DNA of 35,543 nt from an uncultured Actinomycetes bacterium. GTDB lineage: Bacteria; Actinomycetota; Coriobacteriia; Coriobacteriales; RUG033. The notes under the pieces are model-generated. The model saw only the letters and a program-made list of their open reading frames with translations, had not been told where the DNA came from and searched no databases. The position numbers and the translations under genes were made by a program. Positions 5,995 through 21,965 of this stretch are shown one piece after another. The DNA is taken from the NCBI GenBank assembly GCA_900314665.1, contig OMWF01000126.1:1-35543 (forward strand), given 5' to 3'. The number at the start of each line of letters is the position of its first letter. Within the stretch, counting starts at the first letter, position 1.

Positions 5995-6021
5995 GGCCGT
6001 TCTCCTCAGTCGCCCATCGGC

Positions 6022-7632
6022 TCACTGCCGACGGTCGCGCTTGCGCCGACGCGAGACCTCGACGCCCATCTTGGAACCAAACCCGGCCAGCTCGCGGTCG
6101 TCTCCGGCAGCGTCTCCCGCCTGCGCCAGCTCGCGGTCGATGGCTCCCTGGCCGCTTGGCTGCGCGATCGCCACGCCCGCCGGCAGGGCCGCCGGAGTCA
6201 CCAGGCTCACCAGCGGGGTCACCGCCAGCGACACCAGCATGGCGAGGGCGCCGGCGTTGATGGGGCTCGTGAACCCCAGCGCCATGTTGGAGACCGTGAT
6301 GCCCACGCCCAGGATGAAGCTCGCCCATACGCCGGCCTTGCTGATCCGCTTGCTGTAGAGCGCCCAGAAGAAGGGCCCCAGGAACGAGCCGGCCAGGGCT
6401 CCCCAGCTGATGGACATGAGCTGGGCTATGAAAGTGATGGAGCTGGTGTACTGCACCAGGGCGAGCATCGCCGAGATGGCGACGAACACCACCAGCAGGG
6501 CGCGGATCCAAGCAAGCTGGCGCTTCTCGTCCATCTCCTTGACCAGGTTGTCCTTGACGAGGTCGAGGGTGAGCACGCTTGACGAGGTCAACACCAGCGA
6601 GGAGAGCGTGGACATGGAGGCGGAGAGCACCAGCACGATGACCAGGCCGATGAGCAGGTCGGGCAGCGTCGAGAGCATCGTGGGGATGATGGAGTCGTAG
6701 ACGGGGGTGCCACTGGCAGCGTACTCGATGCTGCCTGCATACAGGCGCCCGAAGCCGCCCAAGAAGTAGCTCCCACCCGCGACCACGATGGCGAAGAAGG
6801 TCGAGATGATGGCGCCTTGCTTGATGGCCGGGCCGCTCTTGATGGCGTAGAACTTCTGGACCATCTGCGGCAGGCCCCAGGTTCCCAGCGAGGTCAGGAC
6901 CACCACGCCCAGCAGGTTGGGCAAGTCGGGCCCAAACATGCTGGTGAAGGGGCCTTGCAGGGCGGTGCCCTGAGCGGGTACCTGCGACAGGGAGACGATG
7001 GCCTGAGTGAAGCCGCCGTTTGCCTGCAGCACGCAGATCACGATGGCCGTAATTCCAAAGAGCATGACGATGCCCTGAAGAAAGTCGTTCACCACGGTTG
7101 CCATGTATCCGCCAAGCACGACATAGATGCATGTGATGACCGCCATGCCGATGATGCAGGCCTCATACGGCAGGCCAAAGGCCATCCCAAAGAGCCGCGA
7201 CAGCCCGTTGTAGACGGAGGCCGTGTAGGGAATCAGAAAGATGAAGATGATGGCCGCGCTGGCGATGCGCAGCGCCTGGCTGCCGTAGCGCTTGCCAAAG
7301 AACTCGGGCATGGTGGAGGCCTTGAGGGCCTGGGTCATCTCGCGCGTGCGCGGACCGAGCACCCACCAGGCAAGCAGGCTGCCGAGAAGGGCGTTGCCAA
7401 GGCCCACCCAGCTCGCCGACAGGCCGTACTTCCACCCAAACTGCCCGGCATAGCCCACAAAGATGACCGCCGAGAAGTAGCTGGTGCCAAACGCGAAGGC
7501 CGAGAGCCACGGACCCACGTTGCGGCCTCCGAGGATGAAGCCGTCGACGTTGGCGGCGTGGCTCCTGCAGAAAAGCCCCACCCCGATGGCGATGACGGCA
7601 AAGATGACGAGCATCAGTATCTTGAGAACCAC
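6022..7632 (-). CDS. Sodium:solute symporter (SSS family, PutP-like)
   Basis: A 536-aa multi-pass sodium-coupled importer with about 13 transmembrane segments. The N-terminal half has the family pattern: GGRNVGPW after the first helix, then GTSYFSAVIFVGYAG. The C-terminal half has LSASMSTLSSLVL, the sodium-site helix with its Ser/Thr pair. A 70-residue hydrophilic cytoplasmic tail rich in Asp and Arg follows. Substrate cannot be set from sequence alone; proline, pantothenate or another organic acid are all possible. I place the start at GTG 7632, which has GGGGG at a normal distance; a TTG at 7638 is in frame but too close to it. Confidence 0.9.
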   Translation of the reverse strand: MVLKILMLVIFAVIAIGVGLFCRSHAANVDGFILGGRNVGPWLSAFAFGTSYFSAVIFVGYAGQFGWKYGLSASWVGLGNALLGSLLAWWVLGPRTREMTQALKASTMPEFFGKRYGSQALRIASAAIIFIFLIPYTASVYNGLSRLFGMAFGLPYEACIIGMAVITCIYVVLGGYMATVVNDFLQGIVMLFGITAIVICVLQANGGFTQAIVSLSQVPAQGTALQGPFTSMFGPDLPNLLGVVVLTSLGTWGLPQMVQKFYAIKSGPAIKQGAIISTFFAIVVAGGSYFLGGFGRLYAGSIEYAASGTPVYDSIIPTMLSTLPDLLIGLVIVLVLSASMSTLSSLVLTSSSVLTLDLVKDNLVKEMDEKRQLAWIRALLVVFVAISAMLALVQYTSSITFIAQLMSISWGALAGSFLGPFFWALYSKRISKAGVWASFILGVGITVSNMALGFTSPINAGALAMLVSLAVTPLVSLVTPAALPAGVAIAQPSGQGAIDRELAQAGDAAGDDRELAGFGSKMGVEVSRRRKRDRRQ

Positions 7633-14799: not shown

Positions 14800-16710
14800 T
14801 CAGCGCTTCGCCAAGGCGAGGCAGCGCATGGCGTTTAAGATGGCGATGACCGAGACGCCCACATCGCCAAAGACGGCGAGCCACATGGTGGCTATGCCGA
14901 TGAACGGCAGGGCCAGAATCATGATCACAATCTTGACCGTCAGGGCAAAGACGATGTTTTGCCAGACGATGCCCATGGTCTTGCGGCTGATGCGCATCGC
15001 CTGCGCGATATTGGAGGGCTTGTCGTCCATAAGCACCACGTCGGCAGCCTCTATTGCGGCATCGGAACCCAAGGCGCCCATGGCGATGCCCACATCAGCG
15101 CGCATCAGCACCGGGGCGTCGTTGATGCCGTCGCCCACAAAGGCGAGCTTGTCCTTCCCTGACGCCGCAGAGATCAGATCCTCCACGTACGACACCTTGT
15201 CCTGGGGCAAGAGTTGAGCGTGATACTCGTCGATGCCAAGCTCGCGGGCCACTGCCGCAGCCACCCTCTCATGGTCTCCAGTGAGCATGACCGTCCTCCT
15301 GATGCCGGCGGCATGCAGGTCGTCGATGGCTTGCTTGGCATCCTTCTTGAGCACGTCGGCGATCACGATGTGTCCGCAATACTCTCCGTCCACAGCGACA
15401 TGGAGGATGGTTCCCACCACCTCGCATGTCCTGTAGATGATTCCGGCATCGTTCATCAGCCTGTCGTTGCCCACCAGCACGGTATGGCTCCTGACGTGGG
15501 CCGAGACGCCCTTGCCGCCCCGCTCCTCCACATGGTCGATCTGCTCCTGGTCGATGACGCCGCTGTAGCTCTCCTTGACCGAGAGGGCGATGGGATGGTT
15601 GGAGAAGGCCTCGGCGTGCGCCGCATAGCTCAGGAGGAGATCCGGGTCGTAGGCCTCTTCGGCATGGACCGCCACCACCCTGAACGTTCCATCGGTCAAG
15701 GTTCCGGTCTTGTCGAAGACCACCGTCTCCACATGGGACAGGTTCTCGAGGTAGCTCGAGCCTTTGACAAGGATGCCCGCCCTGCTGGCGGCGCCGATGC
15801 CGCCAAAGAACGAGAGGGGCACGCTTATGACGAGCGCGCAGGGGCAGCTGACCACCAGGAAGATGAGGGCGCTCATGACGCAGCCGCTCCAGCTCGCCGC
15901 TCCCGCCAGAGGCGGAACGAGGGCGATGGCGAGCGCCGATAGCACCACGATGGGCGTGTAGTAGCGAGCGAAGCGGGTGATAAACGCCTCAGTGCGCGCC
16001 TTCTTCTCGCTGGCGTTCTCCACCAGCTCGAGGATGCGCTGGACCGTGGACTCGCCGTAGGGCTTGATGACCTCGGCGGTGATCGCCCCGGTCAGGTTGA
16101 TGCAGCCGGACACCACCTCGACGCCCGGCTCCACCGCCCGGGGGACGGACTCCCCGGTGAGCGCGGCGGTATCCACCTGGCTCTCGCCCTCAACCACGAG
16201 CGCGTCGAGCGGAATCCGCTCGCCCGGCTTGACGACGATCCGCTCGCCCTGCTTGACCTCGGAGGGGTCCACCACGGCAAGCTCGCCGTCGCGCAGCAGG
16301 TTGGCATGGTCCGGGGCGATGTCCATCATGGCCGAGATGGAGCGGCGCGTACGACCCACCGCATAGTCTTCGAAGAGAGTTCCCACCTGGTAGAAGAGCA
16401 TCACCGCCGCGCCCTCGGCCATGTGCGGCTCGGACTCGGGAAAGAACACCAGGGCAAAGGCGCCGATGGTGGCGATGGACATGAGCAGGTTCTCGTCGAA
16501 GGGCTGCCGGTGGATGATGCCGTGCCAGGCCTTGGCCAACACGTCGTATCCGGCCAGCAGATAAGGGACGAGAAATGCCGCGAACTCAATCCAGAGCCCG
16601 TAGCTGCCTGAGTAGACACCAGTGGGCTGCAGCAGCTCCAAGGTCGCAAAGACGATGAGCGCGATGACGATGCGGCGCTGTTTGCGCTTGCGACGGTTCT
16701 TCTTAGCCAT
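14800..16710 (-). CDS. P1B-type heavy-metal-exporting ATPase (ZntA/CadA class)
   Basis: A 636-aa ATP-driven efflux pump. Visible features are a very basic N-terminus, TGE actuator loop (TGES, 185-188), the ion-binding CPC in the sixth helix (289-291), phosphorylation loop DKTGT with D333, the SNHP nucleotide-binding motif, and GDGINDAP hinge. The final helix contains FGDVGVS, an Asp expected for Zn2+/Cd2+/Pb2+ pumps rather than copper pumps. It lacks the usual N-terminal metal-binding domain; a free one is encoded just upstream. GGGGAGAGG precedes the ATG. It is the last gene of the metal operon. Confidence 0.94.
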   Translation of the reverse strand: MAKKNRRKRKQRRIVIALIVFATLELLQPTGVYSGSYGLWIEFAAFLVPYLLAGYDVLAKAWHGIIHRQPFDENLLMSIATIGAFALVFFPESEPHMAEGAAVMLFYQVGTLFEDYAVGRTRRSISAMMDIAPDHANLLRDGELAVVDPSEVKQGERIVVKPGERIPLDALVVEGESQVDTAALTGESVPRAVEPGVEVVSGCINLTGAITAEVIKPYGESTVQRILELVENASEKKARTEAFITRFARYYTPIVVLSALAIALVPPLAGAASWSGCVMSALIFLVVSCPCALVISVPLSFFGGIGAASRAGILVKGSSYLENLSHVETVVFDKTGTLTDGTFRVVAVHAEEAYDPDLLLSYAAHAEAFSNHPIALSVKESYSGVIDQEQIDHVEERGGKGVSAHVRSHTVLVGNDRLMNDAGIIYRTCEVVGTILHVAVDGEYCGHIVIADVLKKDAKQAIDDLHAAGIRRTVMLTGDHERVAAAVARELGIDEYHAQLLPQDKVSYVEDLISAASGKDKLAFVGDGINDAPVLMRADVGIAMGALGSDAAIEAADVVLMDDKPSNIAQAMRISRKTMGIVWQNIVFALTVKIVIMILALPFIGIATMWLAVFGDVGVSVIAILNAMRCLALAKR

Positions 16711-17011: not shown

Positions 17012-17368
17012 TCACTCGCAGACATGCGAGAGCCCCTGCGCGAGTATCGAGTGCACATGGTCGTCGGAGAGCGAGTAGACGATCTGCCTGCCCTCGCGCC
17101 GCCCCTTGACCAGATGCGCCTGCTTCAAGCTGCGCAGCTGATGGGACACTCCGCTTTGCGAGACGCCCACCGCCTCGGAGAGGTCCGCGACGCACAGATC
17201 GCCTTCCATGAGGGCGTAGAGAAGCTTGATGCGCGTGGTGTCGGCAAAGACCTTGAACAGGTCAGCCAGGTCGTAGAGCAGCTCCTCGTCGGGCATCTCG
17301 CAGGCGATGACCTTGCCCTCGCCGTGCCGATGCTGAAACACCTCGCCGGATGGGTTGTCTCGGGCCAT
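17012..17368 (-). CDS. ArsR/SmtB-family metal-responsive repressor
   Basis: A 118-aa winged-helix repressor. The DNA-recognition helix is VSQSGVSHQLRSL (69-81). The C-terminal helix carries D102-x-H104-x10-H115-x2-E118, exactly the alpha5 zinc-site spacing of SmtB/CzrA. Cys59 in GDLCVADL matches one of the CadC/ArsR alpha3 cysteines, and His13/His15 and Cys23 lie in the N-terminal arm, so a second site is possible. ATG 17368 has GGGAGG upstream; a longer reading to 17569 would run through the operator and is rejected. It is first in the operon with the HMA protein and the P1B-ATPase, and should release the operator when zinc or cadmium binds. Confidence 0.93.
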   Translation of the reverse strand: MARDNPSGEVFQHRHGEGKVIACEMPDEELLYDLADLFKVFADTTRIKLLYALMEGDLCVADLSEAVGVSQSGVSHQLRSLKQAHLVKGRREGRQIVYSLSDDHVHSILAQGLSHVCE

Positions 17369-17424
17369 GTCGACCTCCCGTCTGTTGCCGCGGGCCGCAG
17401 CGCACGTGCCCCGGCGTACCATGT

Positions 17425-17450
17425 AACATATGAGCATCTGTTCATATGTT
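17425..17450 (-). promoter_or_regulatory. SmtB/ArsR-type 12-2-12 operator over the metal-operon promoter
   Basis: Two 12-bp arms, 17425-17436 and 17439-17450, are inverted repeats with 11 of 12 positions paired around a 2-bp centre. The arms contain AACATATGA and TTCATATGTT, close to the known SmtB/CzrA consensus. On the minus strand a -10-like TATGTT (17425-17430) lies inside the operator. The site is 57 nt upstream of the repressor start, so it should give autoregulation of the whole operon. Confidence 0.85.
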
Positions 17451-17568
17451 GCACTCAATGTACGTCGCCTCCCTCTCGATGTCAATCCCCTCCCGAGAAG
17501 CGCCAAGGCCCCGCCCTGCCGCCCGTCCGGAAGTCGGCGAGGGTCGCTTGGCACCGGGGTCATGTTCA

Positions 17569-17721
17569 CGGCTTATACCAACCGAAGACCGTTGGTTTCG
17601 TGTTTGTCATCTCGTATCCGGCATTAGTTTGCTACGGTTCCTTCCTTGGAAATGAAGTCACCGACGCGGGGATTTAGGCAGGCGTCTCCGCCAAACATAC
17701 ACATCACTGGGGGTTTTACTC
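17569..17721 (+). promoter_or_regulatory. Leader/promoter region of the envelope (dlt-like) operon
   Basis: The 353-bp gap between the metal repressor and the lipoprotein gene has no other gene. Its right part must carry the plus-strand promoter. TTGTCA (17604-17609) and TAGTTT (17625-17630) are candidates, but the 15-bp spacing is short. ACCAAC and GTTGGT form a 6-bp inverted repeat around 17578-17597 just upstream, a possible operator. Evidence is weak. Confidence 0.3.
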
Positions 17722-17901
17722 ATGCGTTCTCGCTTCTTCCTTGCATTGGCACTCTCCGCTGTCATGGCTTTTGGAGCCTTTGGCCTTGCCGCCTGCGGCT
17801 CGAAGAGCTCAAACAACAGCGGGTCTGCCACCTCGGCAACCTCCGCCCAGTCAACCTCACAGGACAACTGCTACGGCAACGACCTCCCTGCCACCAAGTA
17901 G
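17722..17901 (+). CDS. Small lipoprotein leading the dlt-like operon
   Basis: A 59-aa protein. Residues 1-24 form a signal peptide and LAAC (22-25) is a lipobox, so Cys25 is the anchor. The mature part is only 35 residues: a Ser/Thr/Asn/Gly-rich stretch and then QDNCYGNDLPATK at the C-terminus. TGGGGG precedes the ATG. It ends 33 nt before DltB. No family is recognised. A lipoprotein start to a teichoic-acid acylation operon is unusual, and the short mature chain suggests a membrane-anchored partner or tag rather than an enzyme. Confidence 0.75.
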   Translation: MRSRFFLALALSAVMAFGAFGLAACGSKSSNNSGSATSATSAQSTSQDNCYGNDLPATK

Positions 17902-17934
17902 CTGCTGACGCCCTCTCAGCGCGGCGTCCCCTAG

Positions 17935-19116
17935 ATGGACTTCTACACCGAACCAGCGTTTTTCATGCTGCTCCTCCCCATCGTGGGCATCGCGGTGGTG
18001 CTGGGTCTCGCCCAAAAGCCGCTTGCCCGCTACGGGTTTGCAGTCTCGGTCGCCATGCTGGTCCTGCTCTTCTCGCGCTCCCTGGCCAGCCTCGCGTTTC
18101 TGGGCTGCTACCTGCTGCTCTCATGCCTACTCATGCGCTGGGTGCGGCATCTCTTTGCCAGCAAGGCCCCTCATGCGGTGGGCTGGTACCGAGTGGCCCT
18201 GGCGCTCCAAATCGCCCCCCTGGCCGTCTACAAGGTGGGCGTCGTCTTCGACCCGAGCTTCCTCGGCTTCCTCGGCATCTCGTACATCACCTTCAAGGCG
18301 GTGCAGGTGCTAATCGAGACCCGCGATGGCCTTATCGAGCACCTCTCGGTCTTTGAGTACCTCTACTTCCTCATCTTCTTTCCCACCTTCACCTCGGGGC
18401 CCATCATGCGCAGCCGCAAGTTTGCGGCCGACATCGACAAGCCCCTCTCCCGCGACGCCTATCTCGAGCGCCTCTATCGGGGCGCGGGCTTCTTCATCTT
18501 GGGCGCGGTGTACAAGTTCGTCTTCTCCGCCATGACCGCCTGGCTGATGTGGTTCGCGCCGAGCGTCATCGGCACCTCCACCGCGGGCTCCTTCGTCCTG
18601 ACCCAGGTGGTGTACGCCCTGTGCTACGGGCTCAACCTCTTCTTTGACTTTGCCGGCTACTCGCACATGGCGGTGGGCGTTGGCATGGCCCTCGGGATCG
18701 AGGTGCCCCGCAACTTCCGGGCGCCGTTCCTGGCCGTTTCCATCAAGGACTTTTGGAACCGCTGGCACATCACCCTCTCATGGTGGCTGCGCGACTTCGT
18801 CTTCATGCGCTTCTCGGCCGCCGCCTTTGAGCACAGGTGGTTCAAGTCGCCGGTTGCGGTGGCGTGCGTCGGCTTCATCCTCAACATGACCCTGATGGGC
18901 GCTTGGCACGGCCTGACCATCCCCTACCTCGTCTACGGCCTGTTCCACGGCGTGCTGCTGGCGCTCTGCGAGCTCATGGAGCGCAAGTGGGGCTTTTACA
19001 AGCGCAACCACAAGAAGCGCTGGTTTAAGGTTTGCTCATGGGCCGTTACCATGGTGGCCGTGTTCTTCTCGTTGGCGCTGTTCAGCGGCCAGGTCTTCAA
19101 CCCGGTCCTCGTGTAG
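17935..19116 (+). CDS. dltB: DltB-like MBOAT acyltransferase
   Basis: A 393-aa multi-pass O-acyltransferase. In the dlt pathway it takes D-alanine from DltC on the inner face and passes it across the membrane. The diagnostic pattern is present: FFPTFTSGPIMR (148-159), LFFDFAGYSHMAVG (235-248), KDFWNRWHITLS (271-282) with His278, and the catalytic His325 in MGAWHG (321-326) inside the membrane tunnel. Length fits the family (about 380-410). The ribosome site before the ATG is weak, so translation may be coupled to the lipoprotein gene 33 nt upstream. Confidence 0.93.
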   Translation: MDFYTEPAFFMLLLPIVGIAVVLGLAQKPLARYGFAVSVAMLVLLFSRSLASLAFLGCYLLLSCLLMRWVRHLFASKAPHAVGWYRVALALQIAPLAVYKVGVVFDPSFLGFLGISYITFKAVQVLIETRDGLIEHLSVFEYLYFLIFFPTFTSGPIMRSRKFAADIDKPLSRDAYLERLYRGAGFFILGAVYKFVFSAMTAWLMWFAPSVIGTSTAGSFVLTQVVYALCYGLNLFFDFAGYSHMAVGVGMALGIEVPRNFRAPFLAVSIKDFWNRWHITLSWWLRDFVFMRFSAAAFEHRWFKSPVAVACVGFILNMTLMGAWHGLTIPYLVYGLFHGVLLALCELMERKWGFYKRNHKKRWFKVCSWAVTMVAVFFSLALFSGQVFNPVLV

Positions 19117-19137
19117 TCTCTGAAGGGAGCTTTTGTC

Positions 19138-19389
19138 ATGGCAGATCAGCAGGTGCGCGATCAGATCATCGACCTCGTTGCCGAAATCAGCGGTGAGGAC
19201 GAGGTCAAAGAGCCCGAGAACCAGGACGTCGACCTCTTTGAGGCCGAGGTCTTCGACTCCTTTGCAGCCATCCAGTTCCTGGTCGAGGTCAAGGACCGCT
19301 TTGGCGTCTCCATCGCCCCCACGGAGCTTGAGCGCGAGGAGATGAACACGGTCAACAAGATCGTGGCCCGTATCACCGAGCGCATGTGA
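19138..19389 (+). CDS. dltC: DltC-like carrier protein
   Basis: An 83-aa acidic four-helix carrier. Ser41 in VFDSFAAIQFL is the site for 4'-phosphopantetheine and aligns with the DSL motif of DltC. FGVSIAPTEL and a short helix IVARITERM complete the fold. It should carry the activated acyl group (D-alanine in known systems) to DltB. AAGGGAG precedes the ATG, and it lies 21 nt after dltB. The adenylating partner DltA is not encoded in this window. Confidence 0.92.
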   Translation: MADQQVRDQIIDLVAEISGEDEVKEPENQDVDLFEAEVFDSFAAIQFLVEVKDRFGVSIAPTELEREEMNTVNKIVARITERM

Positions 19390-19417
19390 TGGCGGCACCG
19401 TCTCCCCGACGCACCCG

Positions 19418-20581
19418 ATGAGCCCCCACACCGTACACACCCGCCTCGTTGCCCTCCTCGTCGGCGTCGTCATCGCCGCGGCGGCGGCCTGCTGCACCTT
19501 CCTGCTGCTGCCCGCCCAGAGCGAGCAGGCGACAGGGGTCGAGTACGGGTACGTCTACTCCGGCGCCAAATCGTCGAGCGCGAGCTTCATCGAGGCCAAT
19601 ATGGACCAGAGCTCGATCCTGGTCCAAGGCTCCTCCGAGTTCTCCACCCCCTCCAGCCTCGTGCCCCAGGTGCCCTCGCAGGTCTTTGGCGCCACCAACT
19701 ACGGGCTGCGGATGATGTGCGTAGGCGAGGCCTACGACCAGAGCCTCTGGCACGCGATGGCGCTGGGCGCGCTCGCCAACGGCAACCGCCTTCCCGGCGG
19801 CAAGGTGGTGCTCATCGTGGCACCCGGCTGGTTTGTGGATGGCGGACAGGATCCCAACACCTTCAAGACCCGCTTCTCGTACTCGATGTGGCAGGGCTTC
19901 TGCGACAACCCCGACGTCCCCGACCAGACCAAGAGCTACGTGGCTTCTCGCCTGCGGCAGATGGGCATTGACGAGACCACCATCAACTCGGGTGCGGGAA
20001 ACCTCCCCCAAGACCGTCTGGACTCGCTTGCCTTGGGCGCGCTTGACGACCTCAAGCTGCGCCAGCAGCTCGGCAAGGTCCGGCAGGAGGGCTCGCCGCT
20101 CGCCTCCGGCGAGTTGCAGACTCCCGATTGGGAGTCCTTGCGCGCCCAGGCTCTGGCCGACGCCCAAGCCAGAAGCACCAACAACGACTGGGGCATCGAG
20201 AATGGCTTCTACGCCGACCGCCTGGCACCAGTGCTCGACGGCTCCCGGGGCATCAGGGCAGGCGAGACGTATTCCGCCACCCCCGAGTACGATGACCTGC
20301 GCGCCTACCTTCAGGTGGCCAAGGCAAACGGCCTGGACGTGCTTGTGATCGTCTCGCCGGTATGCGGCCCCTACTACGACCACATCGGCATCGACGCCTC
20401 CGCCCGCGCTACCTGCTACGAGCGCATCCGACAAGTGGCGGCTGACGAGGACGCGCAGGTGGCCGACTTCTCCGACCGCGAGTACGAGCGGTACTTCCTC
20501 TACGACATCGTCCACTTTGGCTGGACCGGCTGGATCGACGTCGAACAGAGCATCTACCAGTTTGCGCAGGGAGGCGAGTGA
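19418..20581 (+). CDS. dltD: DltD-like extracellular acyl-transfer hydrolase
   Basis: A 387-aa protein anchored by one N-terminal transmembrane helix (about 9-32) with an outside SGNH/thioesterase-like domain. The catalytic block is QGSSEF (70-75), whose Ser72 or Ser73 is the nucleophile, and the C-terminal D363-x-x-H366 in YDIVHFGWTGW supplies the Asp and His. In known systems DltD transfers D-alanine onto teichoic acid. Length is near the family norm (about 400). It starts 28 nt after dltC with no clear ribosome site and overlaps nothing; dltX follows 2 nt after its stop. Confidence 0.93.
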   Translation: MSPHTVHTRLVALLVGVVIAAAAACCTFLLLPAQSEQATGVEYGYVYSGAKSSSASFIEANMDQSSILVQGSSEFSTPSSLVPQVPSQVFGATNYGLRMMCVGEAYDQSLWHAMALGALANGNRLPGGKVVLIVAPGWFVDGGQDPNTFKTRFSYSMWQGFCDNPDVPDQTKSYVASRLRQMGIDETTINSGAGNLPQDRLDSLALGALDDLKLRQQLGKVRQEGSPLASGELQTPDWESLRAQALADAQARSTNNDWGIENGFYADRLAPVLDGSRGIRAGETYSATPEYDDLRAYLQVAKANGLDVLVIVSPVCGPYYDHIGIDASARATCYERIRQVAADEDAQVADFSDREYERYFLYDIVHFGWTGWIDVEQSIYQFAQGGE

Positions 20582-20583
20582 GC

Positions 20584-20766
20584 ATGGCGCTCGGTGCCAA
20601 GAAGAAGACGGCCAGCGCACGGCTCAGGCGCTGGCTCGACGCGCACAACAAGACGGCGTGCCTCTTGATAGGGACGCTTACCGCCGCTGCCCTCATAGGG
20701 CTCTTTCTCTTTGTTTGCTTCTCCGGATTTGGGGCTTCTGCGGATTTCATCTACAGCCAGTTCTAA
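20584..20766 (+). CDS. dltX: DltX-like small membrane protein with C-terminal FIYSQF
   Basis: A 60-aa single-span protein: a basic N-terminus (KKK, RLRR), one transmembrane helix (about 26-49) and the C-terminus ADFIYSQF. The last six residues match the F-x-Y-x-x-F ending of DltX (usually FIYNEF). In recent models the Tyr of that motif receives the acyl group from DltB and donates it through DltD; here it would be Tyr57. ATG 20584 has GGGAGG about 9 nt upstream; a GTG six bases earlier is too close. In Firmicutes dltX usually comes first in the operon, before dltA. Here it comes last, right after dltD. Confidence 0.85.
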   Translation: MALGAKKKTASARLRRWLDAHNKTACLLIGTLTAAALIGLFLFVCFSGFGASADFIYSQF

Positions 20767-20837: not shown

Positions 20838-21965
20838 GTGGTTCAGCAGCAGGGCGACAAAAGCAGGGAGCATGACGACGCCGGCCACCGGCGCCGTTCT
20901 TCTCGCGAGGACGAGCTTCGTCAGACGCGCCCGCCGCGTTCGGGGGATGTCCGTTCTCCTCGCAGGCCCCGTCCGTCTGCGCTGGAGCGCGACACGCGCA
21001 CCGGAGAGCAGCACCACGAACCCGTCAGCCGGCAGGACCGCTCACGGACGCCGGGACGCGCCTCTCGCCCCATCGAGCGCTACGCAAACGAGCGCCCCCA
21101 AAACAAGCAGGCCGCATCCCGCCCACGCAGCACGCAGGACGGGCGGCCCCGTCGGCGAGCGCAGCAGGTCGAGTCTGTTCTCGTGCGCATCGTAGCCGGC
21201 GTGATCGTCGGGCTGCGCGCCTTCGTCTCCTTCTTCAAGGGCCTGGGGTCGGTCGTCATCAAGGGCCGCCGGGTACCCGTCTGGTCCCTCATCGTAGGCG
21301 CGATTGCGGTGGTCGTCGCCGTCGCGCTCATCTCATCGGCTGCCTCCTCGGCCCATGCGCAACGCGTGCTGGCCGAGCAGCAGGCCGCCTCCGAGGCCGC
21401 CGCCAGCACTGAGGCCCAAGCCGCCTCCGAGGCCGCCGCCAGTGCGGCCGCAGCCTACCAGGGCGTGGAGGACCCCTGGGTGAGCAGCGGCTACTTCACT
21501 ACCGGCGACGCCGAGCTTGACCAGATGGTCAAGGACCTCTGCGACGCCAACAGCAGCGCCGACAAGGACTTCTCCGACAACGCCTACAACACCTACCTGC
21601 AGATAACCTGGATGGACTACGTCGAGCGCGACAGCAACCAGAATCCCGAGGGGGCCGACTGGGCCGTCACCTATGCCAAGCAGCTGGTGACCGAGAACAG
21701 CGGCAACTGCTACAACTTCACGGCCATGACCCAGTGGATTCTCCGCTACTTTGGCTACACGGACGCCTTTGCCCAGCCCTGCATCGTCCATCTGCAGAGC
21801 GGCAACTGGGGCGACCACGGCCTGGTCTTTGTCACCAACGTCAAGACCGGCGAACGCTGCTTCTGCGACGACGCGCTGAGCTCTAAGGGATGGATGCTCG
21901 CCATCGACACTTACGAGTACACCATCAAGGACGTGGGTCAGGGCAACCTCACCACCGAACCGTAA
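20838..21965 (+). CDS. Membrane-anchored transglutaminase-like protein
   Basis: A 375-aa protein. Residues 1-110 are a disordered Arg/Gln-rich cytoplasmic tail. One transmembrane helix lies at about 148-170. An Ala/Glu/Ser repeat (about 176-206) forms a stalk. Residues 210-375 are an outside domain with a transglutaminase-like triad: C291 in NSGNCYNF, H327 in WGDHGLV and D344/D345 in CDDA. The start is GTG at 20838 with GGGG upstream. It follows the dlt-like genes on the same strand after 71 bp and precedes murB, so it probably acts on the cell wall as a peptidase or crosslinker. Substrate is unknown. Confidence 0.75.
   Translation: MVQQQGDKSREHDDAGHRRRSSREDELRQTRPPRSGDVRSPRRPRPSALERDTRTGEQHHEPVSRQDRSRTPGRASRPIERYANERPQNKQAASRPRSTQDGRPRRRAQQVESVLVRIVAGVIVGLRAFVSFFKGLGSVVIKGRRVPVWSLIVGAIAVVVAVALISSAASSAHAQRVLAEQQAASEAAASTEAQAASEAAASAAAAYQGVEDPWVSSGYFTTGDAELDQMVKDLCDANSSADKDFSDNAYNTYLQITWMDYVERDSNQNPEGADWAVTYAKQLVTENSGNCYNFTAMTQWILRYFGYTDAFAQPCIVHLQSGNWGDHGLVFVTNVKTGERCFCDDALSSKGWMLAIDTYEYTIKDVGQGNLTTEP

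Follow-up and report, generated by a model that had tools for sequence, protein, structure and literature searches.

A dlt-type operon without linked dltA in an uncultured Coriobacteriales bacterium, and a clade of DltA enzymes with a putatively changed substrate pocket

The window (the whole stretch of 35,543 nucleotides that was analysed, contig OMWF01000126.1 of assembly GCA_900314665.1) carries genes for a small lipoprotein, DltB, DltC, DltD and DltX on the + strand at 17722-20766, and dltA is absent from it. The features of the region are listed below. Identities refer to L076, the dltA-less operon of genome G002, and the cut-offs for DltB, DltC and DltD are the NCBIfam equivalog cut-offs, which all three proteins exceeded.

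14800..16710, - strand: P-type metal ATPase (PF00122; 58% identical in L076)
17012..17569, - strand: ArsR-type regulator (PF01022; 74% identical in L076)
17722..17901, + strand: small dlt-linked lipoprotein, 59 aa, with signal peptide, lipobox Cys, low-complexity linker and conserved C-terminal tail; QDNCYGNDLPATK
17902..17934, + strand: junction of 33 bp from the lipoprotein stop to the dltB start, the place of dltA (about 1.55 kb) in most close relatives
17935..19116, + strand: dltB, MBOAT acyltransferase, 393 aa, with WHG (His325); TIGR04091 416 bits, cut-off 375; PF03062
19138..19389, + strand: dltC, carrier protein, 83 aa, with FDSF (Ser41, the phosphopantetheine Ser); TIGR01688 69.7 bits, cut-off 52.35
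19418..20581, + strand: dltD, SGNH-type transferase, 387 aa, with GSSE and C-terminal DIVHFGW; TIGR04092 259 bits, cut-off 150; PF04914
20578..20766, + strand: dltX, membrane microprotein ending in FIYSQF; start GTG at 20578, or ATG at 20584 by comparison with relatives
20838..21965, + strand: membrane-anchored cysteine-peptidase / transglutaminase-like protein, start uncertain, conserved downstream of dltX

An earlier note, made from the letters alone, had described DltB, DltC, DltD and a DltX-like peptide in one run without dltA. The equivalog scores, the FIYSQF end and our failure to find a DltA in the window confirmed this description. Its statement that the catalytic residues of DltB, DltC and DltD are intact also held, as the WHG, FDSF, GSSE and DIVHFGW motifs can be read from the sequence. 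The dlt genes of the window show a strong third-position codon bias (GC3 0.76-0.90). DltX matched no NCBIfam or Pfam model and is supported by its position and by similarity to the peptide encoded at the same place in relatives (tblastn, lowest E about 1e-23). Its C-terminal FIYSQF conforms to the FXYXXF acyl-shuttle motif of PMC12148441, excerpts of which describe D-Ala passing from DltB via DltX to DltD.

For the 59-aa lipoprotein, NCBIfam and Pfam gave no confident family match. Its C-terminal tail (consensus QDNCYG[DEN]D[LM]P..) is conserved in the window and in 15 of the 80 relative loci, where it adjoins dltA or dltB (upstream of dltA in L009, L010, L011 and others), and by this conservation we take the lipoprotein to be a genuine gene. 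In L020, L022 and L025 a long acidic protein ending in C[IV]PDI[IV]LR occupies the lipoprotein's place. The Cys-containing tail that they share may mark a peptide that binds a partner. The peptidase-like gene follows dltX in the window and in 12 of the 80 relative loci. The encoded protein has no Pfam match, its residues C291, H327 and D344 are invariant among 14 sequences, and its AlphaFold core reaches a pLDDT over 90. The best Foldseek matches, all weak, were the pseudomurein endoisopeptidases PeiP/PeiW, TglA and LapG (E 2e-4 to 1e-3). In G125, three repeat-bearing proteins with a core that looks similar by eye adjoin dltB-dltD-dltX.

The Firmicutes operon for D-alanylation of teichoic acids has the order dltX-dltA-dltB-dltC-dltD. 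Like the window, it encodes DltB, DltC, DltD and a DltX that bears the FXYXXF motif, whereas the window has no linked dltA (none was found), carries dltX last instead of first and contains the lipoprotein and the peptidase-like gene as additional members. The related dlt operons of rumen and gut Coriobacteriia (L009-L016, L036 and others) contain the lipoprotein, dltB, dltC, dltD, dltX and the peptidase-like gene in the same order as the window, but have dltA, with a changed substrate pocket, between the lipoprotein gene and dltB. Thus, the window shows the order of its closest relatives (lipoprotein-dltA-dltB-dltC-dltD-dltX-peptidase) minus dltA, and since the junction measures only 33 bp, it leaves no room for a dltA remnant. 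Among 80 DltB loci from named genomes, 74 had dltA in the same locus; it was missing from L027, L035, L053, L071, L076 and L086, some of which are truncated. In a dltB tree of 82 rows, the window was nested in a 9-row set (98/95) whose other members have a linked dltA.

L076 was left out of this tree because its dltB match is in two pieces (6001-7178, two frames meeting near 6819, a frameshift or sequence error). It lies on contig JAFWFL010000042.1 of genome G119, whose matches are identical to those of G002, a metagenome-assembled genome from sheep duodenum (JAFWFL01). Its genes follow the order of the window, without dltA: P-type ATPase, ArsR regulator, a lipoprotein with the same tail, dltB-dltC-dltD-dltX and peptidase. 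The dltA of G002 was found alone on another contig (C106, 455 bits), between genes that we labelled by eye as threonine-aldolase-like and AAA-type, and in the DltA tree its product groups with operon-linked DltAs (98 SH-aLRT). In both genomes the operon lacks dltA and is preceded by the same genes, but G002 has its dltA on a different contig, while that of the window genome is not in the assembly. Because G002 has the same layout and keeps dltA elsewhere, the dltA-less layout is real and does not imply that DltA was lost. Synteny between the two genomes ends at the dlt block. In a dltB+dltD tree the window and L076 were not sisters; grouping them, which corresponds to a single origin, was not rejected (AU p 0.057), and one shared relocation of dltA is unproven.

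The position of dltA is labile in the clade of the window operon: it lies upstream of the lipoprotein gene in L017 and L021, downstream on the opposite strand in L020, after dltX in L024 and on another contig in G125. The dltA upstream of the lipoprotein gene in L017 and L021 is of the Cys type (see below) and seems to have been replaced there. In G120 (L019) it is dltC that lies on another contig. Given this lability, a missing dltA alone is ordinary.

The assembly of the window genome comprises 2.27 Mb in 314 contigs, with 94.48% completeness, 3.56% contamination and about 5.5% estimated missing. The genome-wide search for DltA-type adenylation domains that the earlier note had called for yielded six PF00501 (AMP-binding) places, and neither a DltA nor a DltA fragment anywhere in this 94.5% complete assembly; the best score against the DltA model TIGR01734 was 240 bits at a cut-off of 560. 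This cut-off is harsh for the order, as just 1 of 119 genomes passed it and true DltAs here score 318-564 bits, and raw scores were therefore compared instead. With the DltA of a close relative as query and E up to 10, only an enzyme on contig C249 and a CoA-ligase-like enzyme matched. The C249 enzyme was rejected as a relocated DltA (240 versus 560 bits, and a position far outside the DltAs in the tree).

A second dltB-dltD-dltX set, without dltC and dltA, lies at L089 (G000:C250, 4532-7248). Its dltB2 and dltD2 both score above cut-off, and dltX2 is interrupted by the contig end. The set sits behind genes labelled by eye as a molybdopterin-type oxidoreductase and an iron-sulfur protein. With regard to C250 as a possible contaminant, its tetranucleotide profile correlates with that of the window at 0.83, compared to 0.91-0.94 for pieces of the window against its remainder, 0.46-0.81 for five other genomes and 0.41-0.48 for G002. 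We counted one DltC in the window genome. Since L024 has the order B-D-X-A-C, dltA and dltC could follow dltX2 past the end of C250, which is a guess from one relative.

The operon is probably part of a canonical dlt aminoacylation system whose dltA is unlinked, with DltA encoded elsewhere in an assembly gap. DltD was detected in 33 of the 119 genomes of the order, and in 32 of these 33 a DltA scoring 318 bits or more is present as well, the window genome being the sole exception. The same threshold was reached in all 20 other distinct genomes of a set of 22 genome handles, which takes in the window genome and counts G002 twice (the second time as G119). G138, the only other genome of the window genome's family, has a DltA as well. 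As DltA accompanies DltD in all these genomes, we infer that a DltA in a gap is the best reading of the locus. Thus, of the alternatives in the earlier note, a ligase elsewhere that charges DltC is favoured by the separate dltA of G002 and by the 32 of 32 other DltD genomes, although this ligase is absent from the window assembly. Several points count against this reading: the assembly contains neither a DltA nor a fragment of one, and at 94.5% completeness a gap that holds dltA is a minority event a priori; with C250, where dltA and dltC are likewise missing from the sites they normally occupy, two loci lack dltA at once; and the window and G002 are not sisters in the dltB+dltD tree.

A different source of charged DltC would be the C249 enzyme, possibly with another amino acid, if DltA were truly absent. 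This stand-alone NRPS-like adenylation enzyme of 493 aa is the only one of amino-acid type in the assembly; it scores 340 bits against TIGR01733 (cut-off 317) and retains the Asp of the amino-acid site. However, its identity is about 30% both to DltAs and to NRPS domains, its end branch in the DltA tree measures 8.65, the DltA motif YGHKSPLM is missing from it, and it falls short of the DltA model as noted above. We found no close relative of it among the loci examined, and on its 9.8-kb contig we saw no dlt gene or carrier; its neighbours are a PatB-type C-S lyase, an esterase and a GNAT acetyltransferase. That this enzyme charges DltC is unlikely in our view.

If dltA had been lost, the loss alone would be enough to stop the pathway, and the failure to find DltA in the assembly would fit an operon in which B, C, D and X no longer work. 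Such a relic is improbable: the four reading frames are intact, their catalytic motifs are conserved and their GC3 is 0.76-0.90, there is a second intact dltB-dltD set, and G002 has the same layout with dltA kept elsewhere. In an assembly as fragmented as this one (314 contigs), a wrong join between the lipoprotein gene and dltB might also have removed dltA from the contig. We consider such an artefact very improbable, because the independent assembly of L076/G002 has the same junction, preceded by the same two genes.

In the favoured reading of an unlinked dltA, a DltA encoded in sequence missing from the assembly would adenylate an amino acid and load it onto DltC. DltB would hand the amino acid from DltC to the Tyr of DltX (FIYSQF), DltX would pass it to the Ser of DltD, and DltD would transfer it to a teichoic acid. 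A single DltA and a single DltC may serve both the window operon and the C250 set. The biochemistry of this relay is carried over in its entirety from published dlt work. With respect to the polymer, the window genome encodes two PF00884 membrane sulfatase-family proteins, neither of which matches an LtaS model. At L247 (G000:C205, 1123-3888) we observed a protein of 921 aa whose N-terminal part resembles YidC and whose C-terminal part is of the sulfatase family.

The part worth following is the changed DltA pocket of the clade. We aligned 74 DltA rows (73 from the 80 loci plus the dltA of G002) and numbered residues by the B. cereus chain 3fcc. According to excerpts of PMC8972799 and PMC4176424, Asp197, Thr297 and Val301 lie at the amino group of D-Ala, its methyl group is surrounded by Leu, Met and Cys at the equivalents of 198, 201 and 269, and Cys269 confers D/L selectivity, which is relaxed in C269A. 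Cys269 was present in 55 of the 74 rows, including all 51 from outside the clade, and missing in 19, every one from the clade of the window operon. The clade's 23 other dltB-tree rows divide into 18 without Cys269, four with it (L017, L021, L023 and L024) and L027, which has no dltA row; the nineteenth Cys269-less DltA is that of G002. Position 269 is Ala in 11 and Val in eight of the variants. Met201 is replaced by Thr in 17, Ser in one and Asp in one, and Thr293 by Gly in 16, Ala in two and Asn in one, while position 301 is Asp in 14, Asn in two, Val in two and Gly in one. When the variant motif NGYGPTESTD was searched for as a DNA pattern, it matched in 13 of 396 Coriobacteriia genomes; no control genome was among the matches listed, and there was no match in the window genome. 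In 12 of the 13 the match lies a short way upstream of dltB, separated from it by the lipoprotein gene in the case of L252, and the thirteenth is the relocated dltA of G002. Two further pocket types were observed. Cys269 is kept and Val301 is exchanged for Gln, with a one-residue deletion nearby, in L024, L034, L043, L047, L049, L102, L106 and L107. A separate stand-alone DltA-like adenylation family (L174, L175, L176, L177, L179 and L180), which several of these genomes encode in addition to DltA, has K/S/L-or-V/C at 201/269/293/301.

Judged from their sequences, the clade's enzymes are of DltA descent and have an altered substrate pocket, and the loss of Cys269 together with the pocket exchanges indicates that the group may activate another, probably more polar, amino acid. 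It is a real possibility, if somewhat less likely than not, that the clade's dlt systems, the window's included, transfer not D-alanine but another, probably larger, polar or cationic amino acid through an otherwise standard DltB/DltC/DltX/DltD relay. With equal reserve, the exchanges of Met201 to Thr and Thr293 to Gly might in most cases open the methyl cavity, with Asp or Asn placed at 301. Asp at the position corresponding to 301 presumably occurs in some diaminobutyrate NRPS specificity codes. As the DltA of the window genome is not in hand, the pocket argument reaches the window only through kinship. The earlier note's other alternative, a different acyl group from a different activating enzyme, thus gains from the apparent pocket change as far as the acyl group is concerned, but not in its second half, as the enzyme is by descent a DltA. 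Against a new substrate, the C269A enzyme still uses D-Ala (excerpts of PMC4176424), and in L017 and L021 an operon of the same type goes with a DltA that has the Cys. DltB, DltC and DltD also show almost no changes that match: of the alignment columns that follow the type of DltA pocket, a single one in dltB, a single one in dltD and none in dltC passed the filter, too few to argue for co-change.

Excerpts of PMC4176424 describe D-alanine, apparently without exception, as the amino acid of teichoic-acid aminoacylation. None of the titles listed by our literature searches dealt with Coriobacteriia dlt operons or DltA pocket variants. Teichoic-acid aminoacylation determines the charge of the cell surface and how well the cell resists cationic peptides. 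Lysine esters occur on actinomycete teichoic acids. The excerpts of PMC5039512 do not show such lysine esters. If the proposed change of substrate were true, these 'dlt' operons would furnish the cell envelope with an aminoacyl decoration of a new kind. Because its selectivity Cys and neighbouring pocket residues are exchanged, this natural clade allows the question whether dlt systems carry other amino acids to be put directly to purified DltAs of gut and rumen Coriobacteriia.
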